Virus record (IMG/VR): IMGVR_UViG_3300047564_001323
Span: 1 to 32,030 of that record
Source: a virus
Length of the DNA: 32,030 nucleotides
Direction: 5' to 3' (one strand)
The notes beneath the pieces were generated by a model. The model saw nothing but the letters and a program-made list of their open reading frames with translations, ran no database searches and was not told the DNA's origin. The translations under genes and the position numbers were made by a program. Shown here piece by piece: positions 20,566 through 23,795 of this stretch (positions are counted from its first letter, which is position 1; every line of letters begins with the position of its first letter).

Positions 20566-21144
20566 ATGGAAATAGTAGATTACAAACCAGTCTACTTTAC
20601 ATTTGGCAGGTTCCAACCATGTACACATGGTCACGAATCAAACTTTAGAGCTTTACAATCGATTGCTAAACAAGCTGATTGGTTTATCATCCCATCTCCA
20701 ACATCGGGTGATGATGATAATCCCCTTTCAATTGATACTAAAATTAGATACATGAAGAAAGCTCTTCCATGGGCAAGCAAGCACATCATAAGTCCATCGT
20801 TGGTAACGAGAGCAGGTAGAAACAATCCAGTTGTTGCATCTATACAAAGTTTGCAGGACATGGGATATGACAAATGCTACATGGTAGTTGGTAGTGATAG
20901 GGTAAATGCTTTCAAGTGGACTAAGACGGGAAACGGCGGGAAGGATTATTCCTTTTATGATTTTGATATCGTTAGCTCTGGAGAGCGCGATGCTGACGGT
21001 GATACGTTTGCTATCTCTGGAACTAAGATGCGCCGAGCTGCAATCGCTGGAGACTTTGCAACATTTAAATCTGGTATGCCAAAGGCGATGAGCGAAGGAG
21101 ATGCGCGGAATCTCATGAAGGAGATCGCTTCTTTTTATAAATAA
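20566..21144 (+). CDS. nucleotidylyltransferase, NMN-adenylyltransferase/cytidylyltransferase-like
   Basis: 192 residues. The HxGH signature lies in FTFGRFQPCTHGHESNF (His21, His23), and the C-terminal ISGTKMR motif (150-156) corresponds to ISSTxxR. YMVVGSDRV is the central strand. These define the HIGH-type nucleotidyltransferase superfamily that includes NMN adenylyltransferase (NadM) and cytidylyltransferases. NAD synthesis or nucleotide-linked modification are both possible. It starts directly after the stop of the ligase-like gene. Its stop codon is the end of a TATAAATAA sequence that forms the next late promoter. Confidence 0.85.
   Translation: MEIVDYKPVYFTFGRFQPCTHGHESNFRALQSIAKQADWFIIPSPTSGDDDNPLSIDTKIRYMKKALPWASKHIISPSLVTRAGRNNPVVASIQSLQDMGYDKCYMVVGSDRVNAFKWTKTGNGGKDYSFYDFDIVSSGERDADGDTFAISGTKMRRAAIAGDFATFKSGMPKAMSEGDARNLMKEIASFYK
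21136..21143 (+). promoter_or_regulatory. T4-consensus late promoter TATAAATA
   Basis: TATAAATA is an exact match to the T4 late consensus, 23 nt before the ATG at 21167 of the long probable virion protein. It overlaps the end of the NMNAT-like gene. Confidence 0.7.
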
Positions 21145-21166: not shown

Positions 21167-22663
21167 ATGCATAGTTTTAGCGAGTTTCATAAGAAGGCAC
21201 AGGTTGCGGAAACGAATATCAACCGCGACAAATTTTATCGTAATGAAATTTACAAGATTGGTGAGTGGATTCTTACTGAAAGTGGAAAGGTTGGAAAGAT
21301 TATTCGCCGTGGACCAAACTACGTTCTCTGCTTGACCGCAGAAGAAACGACATTTAGATCCTGGATTACTGATATCAAAGAAGTCTTTGAGATTGGTACT
21401 GATGCGTATAGAGAATATCTTCAGTCTCTTACTCCTGGCGAAAAGAAGCAACCGTTTTCGAAGATTAAAGTAAAACAAGTCATTCCCCCAGACCCTAAAA
21501 AAGATAAGATGGAAAACAACGAGTATGTAGCAGCGGTGGTAAACGCCCTGTCCAAAAAAACAAGTGGTGTTTTATCCGCTAACGTAAAGAGCGTTGATGA
21601 AACCTGGCGCTATGATAACTCAGCGAAGATGGCAAGCAAAGATCCTAAGGGTCTTGGTGCTGCTGGCGTCGGCGGCGGTGACGCACCTGGCATGAAGATG
21701 GCAGAACCAGCAGGAACTGCAGGTAAGCCAAAGGTCAAGAAGCCTATGCACTCTTGCGCTACTAAGGTTGAGCACTCTGAGTGGGGAGAGGGTAACTGCA
21801 TTAAAGAAATGCACACTCTCGATGAAGAGGGTCACATCACTCACTATGATGTTATGTTCGAGCATGGTCTTGAGCAAAATGTTTCCGTTGCTGCTCTGAA
21901 TGTTCTCGTTAGCGAGATGCATGAGCACGCTATCAACGTTGAAAAAAATCAGGAAGTTCTTGAAGCAAAGAAAGCAAAGAAGCTTGATCCAGTTGGAAAG
22001 GAAGATGGTGATGTAGATAATGATGGTGACTCTGATTCATCTGATTCTTATCTGAAGGCACGTCGCGCTGCTGTTTCTAAGGCGATGGGCAAAAAGATGA
22101 AGGAAGAGGTCGAGGAGATCGAAGAAAAGAAGGGACTGTATGCTAACATTCACGCTAAGAGAGAGCGTGGCGAGCGTCCAGCAAGACCAGGTGAAGAAGA
22201 TTATCCAGCAAAGGATGCTTTTAAGAAGTCAGCTAAAACTGCTAAGAAGGAATCAGTAGAACTGGATGAGGTTGCCCCTCCAGGTGCTAAGGCAGAGCGC
22301 ATGGTCAAGCACATCAAGAAGTCATATGCTAAGGATGGTAAACTGACCGATAAGGAAAAGTCCATCGCCTATGCTACTGCTTGGAAAAATGCCAAGAAGA
22401 CTGAATCTTATGGCATGGAAGATGATGAGGACGACAAGAAGGAAAAGAAAATGAGCAAGGATGCCAAAGCCAAGCACGAAAAGGGTGAGAAGAAAATGGA
22501 TGAAGGCATGAAGCAAGCTCGTGCTAACGTCGGTGCTTCTACCTGTTGGGATGGTTACGAAGCAAAAGGAACCAAGACCAAAGGTGGTAAGGAAGTTCCT
22601 AACTGTGTAAAGAAAGAGCACACCTTCTCTGATTGGCGCAAGGAGATTGCTGAAAAAAAGTAA
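21167..22663 (+). CDS. large Lys/Glu-rich late protein, probable virion or capsid-associated protein
   Basis: 498 residues from the ATG at 21167; the upstream in-frame TTG is unlikely. After a compact N-terminal domain (MHSFSEFHKKAQ ... YREYLQSLTPGEKK) the protein becomes low-complexity and charged. An EF-hand-like acidic loop DVDNDGDSDSSD lies near 281-292, then KGLYANIHAKRERGERP, an ELDEV segment with GAKAERMVKHIKKSYAK, and a C-terminal MKQARANVGASTCWDGYEAK block. These blocks recur in marine phage proteins I have seen annotated as structural or hypothetical. A T4-consensus late promoter precedes it. Its end carries an A AAA AAG slippery heptamer and the signals of a -1 frameshift. Confidence 0.82.
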   Translation: MHSFSEFHKKAQVAETNINRDKFYRNEIYKIGEWILTESGKVGKIIRRGPNYVLCLTAEETTFRSWITDIKEVFEIGTDAYREYLQSLTPGEKKQPFSKIKVKQVIPPDPKKDKMENNEYVAAVVNALSKKTSGVLSANVKSVDETWRYDNSAKMASKDPKGLGAAGVGGGDAPGMKMAEPAGTAGKPKVKKPMHSCATKVEHSEWGEGNCIKEMHTLDEEGHITHYDVMFEHGLEQNVSVAALNVLVSEMHEHAINVEKNQEVLEAKKAKKLDPVGKEDGDVDNDGDSDSSDSYLKARRAAVSKAMGKKMKEEVEEIEEKKGLYANIHAKRERGERPARPGEEDYPAKDAFKKSAKTAKKESVELDEVAPPGAKAERMVKHIKKSYAKDGKLTDKEKSIAYATAWKNAKKTESYGMEDDEDDKKEKKMSKDAKAKHEKGEKKMDEGMKQARANVGASTCWDGYEAKGTKTKGGKEVPNCVKKEHTFSDWRKEIAEKK

Positions 22664-22708
22664 TCGGTCCCGTCGAGATCATGCCTCAGATCGACGACCC
22701 AGAGGGAC
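22641..22708 (+). promoter_or_regulatory. candidate -1 programmed frameshift cassette
   Basis: Three elements occur in order. An internal Shine-Dalgarno-like AGGAG is at 22641-22645. The slippery heptamer A AAA AAG is at 22654-22660, correctly phased and immediately before the stop TAA. A 3' stem begins six bases later: GTCGA 22672-22676 with TCGAC 22691-22695, and GTCCC 22667-22671 with GGGAC 22704-22708 across an 8-nt asymmetric bulge. Slipping back one base continues into the frame of the ORF at 22681 with no stop. The arrangement is that of E. coli dnaX. Confidence 0.5.
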
Positions 22709-22833
22709 AGAAGCAGGGCGACAAAAAGATGCCAAAGGCACCTAAACAAAAAGAAGAGTCAGCTTGCAATCACACCAAAGAAGGTGTAGAATGTCCTGTA
22801 CATGGATCTAAAGCTTGCCCAGAGCAAAGATGA
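22681..22833 (+). CDS. 50-residue Cys/His-rich ORF, separate gene or frameshift extension
   Basis: From the ATG at 22681 the product has 50 residues, Lys/Gln/Pro-rich at first, then CNHTKEGVECPVHGSKACP. Its four Cys and two His are spaced like a small zinc-binding knuckle. There is no convincing Shine-Dalgarno; only GAG lies near. The frame is open upstream back to the slippery site at 22654-22660. A -1 shift would therefore append VIGPVEI plus these 50 residues to the 498-aa protein, giving 555 residues. The composition continues that of the upstream protein. I favour extension over independent gene, at modest certainty. Confidence 0.6.
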   Translation: MPQIDDPEGQKQGDKKMPKAPKQKEESACNHTKEGVECPVHGSKACPEQR

Positions 22834-23758: not shown

Positions 23759-23788
23759 GGGGGATCACTAAATAAGATCCCCCTTTTT
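23759..23788 (+). terminator. intrinsic terminator with CTAAATA in its loop
   Basis: GGGGGATC (23759-23766) pairs with GATCCCCC (23776-23783), then TTTTT. The 9-nt loop ACTAAATAA contains the late-type heptamer CTAAATA. The T-tract runs directly into the consensus late promoter TATAAATA. Confidence 0.9.
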
Positions 23789-23795
23789 ATAAATA
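23788..23795 (+). promoter_or_regulatory. T4-consensus late promoter TATAAATA
   Basis: TATAAATA begins on the last T of the terminator tract and lies 32 nt before the ATG of the Ig-like structural gene. A good Shine-Dalgarno (GGAGAAA) follows at 23819. Confidence 0.8.

Follow-up and report, generated by a model that had tools for sequence, protein, structure and literature searches.

The window analyzed in this work, by which we mean the whole stretch of 32,030 nucleotides (IMG/VR record IMGVR_UViG_3300047564_001323), is a 32-kb virus contig that shows the synteny of marine T4-like cyanophages. Its gene order is DNA polymerase gp43, DUF6267, cytidyltransferase, the gene described here, a TlmH-like hydroxylase, and a head protein, and the neighbors of the locus in the window and in isolates are DUF6267, cytidyltransferase, hydroxylase, head protein (phrog_613), and primase. 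The gene encodes a protein of 498 amino acids (aa) in which several modules can be recognized, viz. an N-terminal part related to T4-GC534, an EF-hand-like DGDVDNDGDSD, a CWDGY...NCVK module, and the end FSDWRKEIAEKK; a Pfam search gave no match in this protein or in its tail. The features of the locus are as follows.

21136-21143, + strand: TATAAATA, resembling a T4 late promoter, 23 nt 5' of the ATG of the gene and weak on its own
21167-22663, + strand: 0-frame open reading frame (ORF) of 498 aa, modular and Lys-rich, from ATG 21167 (TTG 21164) to TAA 22661-22663
22641-22645, + strand: internal Shine-Dalgarno (SD)-like AGGAG, 8 nt upstream of the heptamer
22654-22660, + strand: slippery heptamer A AAA AAG, in the 0-frame phase
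22661-22663, + strand: 0-frame stop codon TAA, immediately 3' of the slip site
22660-22833, + strand: -1-frame extension of 57 aa plus stop (22831-22833), with CNH-x8-CPVH-x4-C at its end
22667-22708, + strand: two-part stem-loop starting 6 nt after the heptamer (-16.6 kcal/mol, z -1.9)
22681-22683, + strand: ATG within the extension, annotated as the start of a separate ORF and probably just an internal Met codon

The first-pass annotation, made from the letters of the window alone, had described an ORF end of GAA AAA AAG TAA with the heptamer in the correct phase, an AGGAG before it, a stem after it, and a -1 frame open through ATG 22681. All of these elements were recovered at the positions listed (the ORF end at 22652-22663), and from 22660 on the -1 frame stays open over 57 codons, reading V-IGPVEI-MPQ...CNH...CPVH...C. 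This is the only in-phase A AAA AAG in the window ORFs of at least 80 codons. The 184-kb genome of P-HM2 contains seven in-phase copies, two of which lie within 10 codons of a stop, viz. the one at this locus and one near the end of the dam gene PHM2_149 (L245:35218-35251). The latter was rejected as a candidate, the -1 frame there being simply that of the overlapping next gene; because this gene has its own ATG upstream of the site, the heptamer there is probably due to chance.

The same annotation had called the product a late virion-type protein. The presence of TATAAATA at 21136 (3 copies in the window vs. 1.1 expected, a weak difference) suggests late expression, so that this half of the description has some, weak, sequence support, whereas a virion-type nature has not been shown. 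A protein of the family of the neighboring gene, the T4-GC190 cytidyltransferase, has been found in S-SM1 virions (PMC3037559), which makes a head-associated role for the product of the present gene plausible without showing it. As a separate observation, TTTTTATAAATAAA at 21136-21143 and 23788-23795 precedes this gene and the head-protein gene (23828) in the manner of T4 late promoters.

We regard it as highly probable, from comparative evidence and in the absence of proof at the protein level, that the modular, probably late gene at this locus of marine T4-like cyanophages undergoes programmed -1 ribosomal frameshifting of the dnaX type. During the decoding of AAA AAG, the 16S rRNA would pair through its 3' end with the AGGAG and the ribosome would be slowed by the stem downstream, while the two tRNA-Lys would slip from A AAA AAG to AAA AAA G, and a fraction of the ribosomes would escape the adjacent stop codon and add a C-terminal tail. 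One gene would in this way give rise to a short form (...EKK) and a long form (...EKK-V-x-GP-VE[VI]MP...). Part of the product most likely receives the extension; there are no protein or ribosome-profiling data on this, and the ribosomal (as opposed to transcriptional) nature of the step, its efficiency, and the role of the tail are inferred.

A search with the 57-aa tail identified 27 contigs and the isolates P-HM1, P-HM2, and MED4-213, all of which have split frames and GAAAAAAAG. A wider profile search with the tail protein yielded 70 distinct loci, a set that was found by the tail protein only and is unbiased for the slip site; GAAAAAAAG is present in phase and in the -1 register in 70/70, and the 0-frame stop follows directly in 63 and one codon later in 7. 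The E-K-K at the junction is encoded as GAA AAA AAG in every one of these 70 loci. Within a larger set of 123 distinct junctions, which was selected for GAAAAAAAG, the other EKK in the same ORFs carry GAAAAAAAG in 4 of 124 cases (codon usage predicts 13%). The residues before the site vary freely (FSDWRKEIAEKK, FSEWRKLSEKK, FTFKSFRSIAEKK, MKEETEKK, RKEIEEEKK), as does the 0-frame stop codon (TAA, TAG, or TGA), and the G after the A run and the exact heptamer phase are invariant. Locus counts are not independent because the sequences are related; at 85% identity the junction sequences form about 41 clusters.

A DNA pattern combining the slip site with VE[VI]MP revealed a second class, with a different 0-frame ending and with tails that lack the Cys/His motif, for which a DNA search lists 34 records. 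It includes the isolates S-PM2, Syn1, S-RIM32, S-CAM1, S-CAM3, Sf-FP1, and S-H9-2, and the position, after the cytidyltransferase, is the same in all cases. A scan for VE[VI]MPE-coding DNA, made without requiring the slip site, gave 67 distinct stretches, consisting of 60 with seven A, 4 with six A, 2 unrelated ORFs (L338 and L346, which were set aside), and 1 natural fusion. Hence, to the question raised by the first-pass annotation of whether homologs keep the heptamer and the split frames, the answer is that they do, without exception among relatives with the split arrangement. A mosaic junction was also observed (L028:2940-3186), in which a 0-frame end from one lineage (EFSEWRSISEKK) is followed by a tail from another (VTSTIEVMPELEDPDG), a pattern that recombination at or near the slip site could have produced.

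That annotation had also considered that the A7 tract might be a misread homopolymer, i.e., a sequencing or assembly error in a gene that is really one frame. Homopolymers are error-prone; however, the same A7 (or A6) with split frames recurs in >120 distinct junctions, drawn from many assemblies, and is shared by the genomes of isolates from different laboratories, and all three stop types and shifted stop positions are found. The many independent contigs and isolate genomes exclude this explanation, whose remaining probability we consider negligible. A further alternative is transcriptional slippage, in which RNA polymerase slips in the A run and the altered mRNA is translated normally to the fused product. 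An A run is present at all sites, and slippage of bacterial polymerases is known at runs of nine A or T (PMC5009743). However, the run here has just seven A, and six contigs (L336, L342, L343, L350, L351, and L344) have six A only with the heptamer A AAA AAG and its phase kept, whereas about nine are used in the known cases of efficient polymerase slippage on A/T runs (PMC5009743). The invariance of the following G and of the heptamer phase, together with an SD and a stem that fit ribosomal stimulation, likewise speaks against it, and ribosomal slippage is favored, though not proved, with only a slim chance left to the polymerase.

The region between the slip site and the ATG provides evidence of another kind. 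It contains no stop in the -1 frame in any sequence and 20-50 stops in the other two frames, and the share of single-base codon differences that are synonymous in the -1 frame is 0.79 and 0.72 in two spacer classes, as against 0.31/0.36 and 0.11/0.02 in the other frames. Spacer lengths of 6, 7, 8, 9, 10, and 21 codons are found, which change only by multiples of three, and when any spacing of 6-18 nt was allowed in a pattern scan, 99/99 distinct matches were in frame. Judged from these substitution patterns, the spacer evolves as -1-frame codons, under purifying selection from the slip site on. Since the -1 frame of the window spacer has no ATG, GTG, or TTG, the simplest assumption is that ribosomes enter it from the 0 frame.

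These data bear on the possibility that two separate proteins are made, the tail being translated from ATG 22681 by re-initiation or coupling, as GenBank has it for P-HM1, P-HM2, S-PM2, and Syn1. The tail ATG is present in 123/123 junctions, which could hint at additional independent initiation, and at about 15-60 nt past the stop it is near enough for coupling to be possible. This reading does not account for the conservation in the -1 frame, with synonymous change, of the VE[VI] codons upstream of the ATG, nor for a spacer length that changes by threes only. The poor ribosome site that the first-pass annotation had noted at ATG 22681 was borne out, with SD pairing of -2.9 in the window (mean -2.5) vs. 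-3.7 at the other gene starts of the window. Moreover, the Met is found in mid-protein in the natural fusion L347, and the ATG-aligned position is occupied by Asn in S-CAM8 (KVKINPK). We consider that separate synthesis has a very slim chance of being the explanation.

The natural fusion, which occurs in L347/L354, is a single-frame ORF of 281 aa that comprises CNHTGAGTNCPVHG, a CWKGY module, LYANIHAKRKRGES, an EF-hand-like module, and ...EGKKPEVEVMPEIDD. The KK of this protein is encoded by AAG AAG, and the slip site is thus absent where it is not needed; these are the relatives with a continuous frame for which a check had been proposed. Comparison of sequences from relatives thereby documents that the site, the split frames, coding in the -1 frame before the ATG, and a spacing that preserves the frame are conserved, and that a fusion in one frame occurs naturally. 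In S-CAM8 and S-RIM12, the downstream ORF starts with MLSFKAL[AS]E[KR]KTKVKINPK and continues in one frame into the Cys/His module, without a slip site. In addition, 23 tails share modules (viz. DUF3008, APPGxxYxRMVKHIKK...ATAWK, and CGCGxxPCxTYGK) with the 0-frame parts of relatives; the tail modules are also found in 0-frame parts and fusions, indicating that the two frames draw on one module pool. Some nearby proteins start with M[KR]S[FY]K[DQ]F (L347).

Tail matches in S-SM2, SynMITS9220M01, and Bellamy were not accepted as further cases, as the Cys/His module (C.H...GE.CPVHG..CP) lies there inside other large proteins, encoded just upstream of the terminase gene (L034:917-3043, L035:1046-3043, and L036:1187-3043). 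From its sequence, it seems that these phages share it as a mobile module.

An SD core is present in 123/123 junctions, 7-15 nt upstream of the heptamer (a review gives 9-14 nt for the internal SD in -1 shifts), and its anti-SD pairing is -7.7 vs. -5.0 kcal/mol in synonymous shuffles. Owing to the Lys/Arg/Glu-rich peptide, the pairing is not exceptional when the sequences are taken one by one (median p 0.375). The 60 nt after the heptamer have a mean folding z of -2.33 vs. -0.45 in other ORF stretches, and folding is more stable than in synonymous recodings in 40/41 clusters (p<0.05 in 28). In class 1, RNAalifold found no consensus helix after the slip site, and in class 2 it found three pairs; the stems differ by lineage and there is no one conserved helix. 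S-CAM1, L336, and L344 have an inserted spacer that contains an AGGCTTG...CAAGCCT hairpin, about 6 nt downstream of the slip site. In the S-PM2-like class, the stem is small and weak. The lack of a consensus stem, the weak S-PM2-like stem, and an SD that is unexceptional singly are points against a frameshift. What looked like a trade-off of SD strength against stem stability disappeared when it was tested (Spearman -0.002).

A pattern search of four Prochlorococcus/Synechococcus genomes found UUU as the sole anticodon of tRNA-Lys in three host-type genomes, and no tRNA-Lys match in the fourth, which is possibly incomplete; the hosts of the window phage itself are not known. A AAA AAG is especially shift-prone in E. 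coli (PMC5009743), which likewise has tRNA-Lys(UUU). The E. coli dnaX signal shares with the cyanophage site the A AAA AAG, the upstream internal SD, the downstream stem-loop (PMC7282821, PMC5009743), and the single tRNA-Lys(UUU). The gene and protein are unrelated, however, the cyanophage stems differ between lineages, and the cyanophage shift leads to the long product and the 0 frame to the short one, the reverse of dnaX. Frameshifting of the IS911 type also uses A AAA AAG and an SD. IS911 insertion sequences additionally rely on a downstream structure (PMC5009743), but the cyanophage gene is no transposase and has modular domains.

The tail chaperones of lambda (G-GT) and the Ig-like capsid/tail extensions of T3 and A2 resemble the proposed system in that a minority of the product receives a C-terminal extension by a -1 shift (PMC5009743). 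In contrast to G-GT, the cyanophage gene lies between the cytidyltransferase and head-protein genes, and a tape measure gene or tail chaperone context was not found at the locus, which has other neighbors. For T4-like tail chaperones, the title of a 2022 paper by Vladimirov (as cited in PMC10885494) names a mechanism other than frameshifting. Unlike the T3 and A2 extensions, that of the cyanophages is not Ig-like: no Ig-like domain was found by Pfam, which gave no match for the window tail and DUF3008 for the S-PM2 tail, and the AlphaFold model of the 57-aa window tail (mean pLDDT 60) has no usable or confident fold.

The class 1 motif CxH-x8-CxxH-x4-C suggests metal binding; since class 2 lacks it, metal binding cannot be the general function. 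The Cys/His end that the first-pass annotation had noted in the 57-residue tail is accordingly a feature of only one of the two tail classes. The role that we infer for the tail is probably to fix how much of a late protein, which may be associated with the head, is made in each of its two forms; in class 1, the tail would in addition carry a metal-binding knuckle. It is also conceivable, though we put this forward only tentatively and would not be surprised to see it fail, that a fixed recoding joint (SD, A AAA AAG, stop, VE[VI]MP) has stayed in place while the flanking modules were exchanged in the marine T4-like cyanophages carrying it. The short and long forms of a protein that is packaged or bound to DNA would then be kept at a set ratio, and the module added (Cys/His knuckle, DUF3008, or others) would be a variable payload.

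The class 1 0-frame end (TFSDWRKEIAE, FTFKSFRSIAE; window 22605-22660, L032:2414-2450) and the MLSFKALAE of S-CAM8 were observed to resemble a T4 capsid-targeting sequence, ending as an [IL]xE prohead-protease site. The FxxWRxxIAE|KK of class 1 resembles a gp21-type site, which is absent in class 2 (KMKEETEKK), and there are no cleavage data. A gp21 cleavage or capsid-targeting site is a lead only.

In the isolates S-PM2, Syn1, S-RIM32, S-CAM1, S-CAM3, P-HM1, P-HM2, and MED4-213, the site is annotated in GenBank as two genes or as one with the second omitted, and the two parts are filed as unrelated "hypothetical" families (e.g., T4-GC534 and 535, 842 and 843, and 1080 and 1081). Proteome searches using those annotations could therefore not have found the fusion. 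No report of frameshifting in cyanophages was found in the open-access papers searched; the mechanism is known, and the gene and its distribution appear to be new. Many cyanophages of the ocean carry this gene, whose strictly conserved signal very probably sends a share of the ribosomes back by one base, so that both a short protein and a long one with a tail are made. The locus provides a well-conserved case of programmed frameshifting for T4-like cyanophages, including the model isolates S-PM2, Syn1, and P-HM2, and, because its lineages carry different stems at one invariant heptamer, a natural experiment on the joint evolution of SD strength, stem, and slip site.

A small T4-GC534 protein adjoins the cytidyltransferase in relatives (L157:2145-2420, L156:2130-2411, and similar), and its own relatives include the N-terminal part of the 498-aa protein of the window. 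In S-PM2, S-RIM32, S-CAM3, and others it bears the name ribonucleotide reductase (NrdB) or "possible cytitidyltransferase," and, on sequence grounds, the two names seem to be propagated errors.
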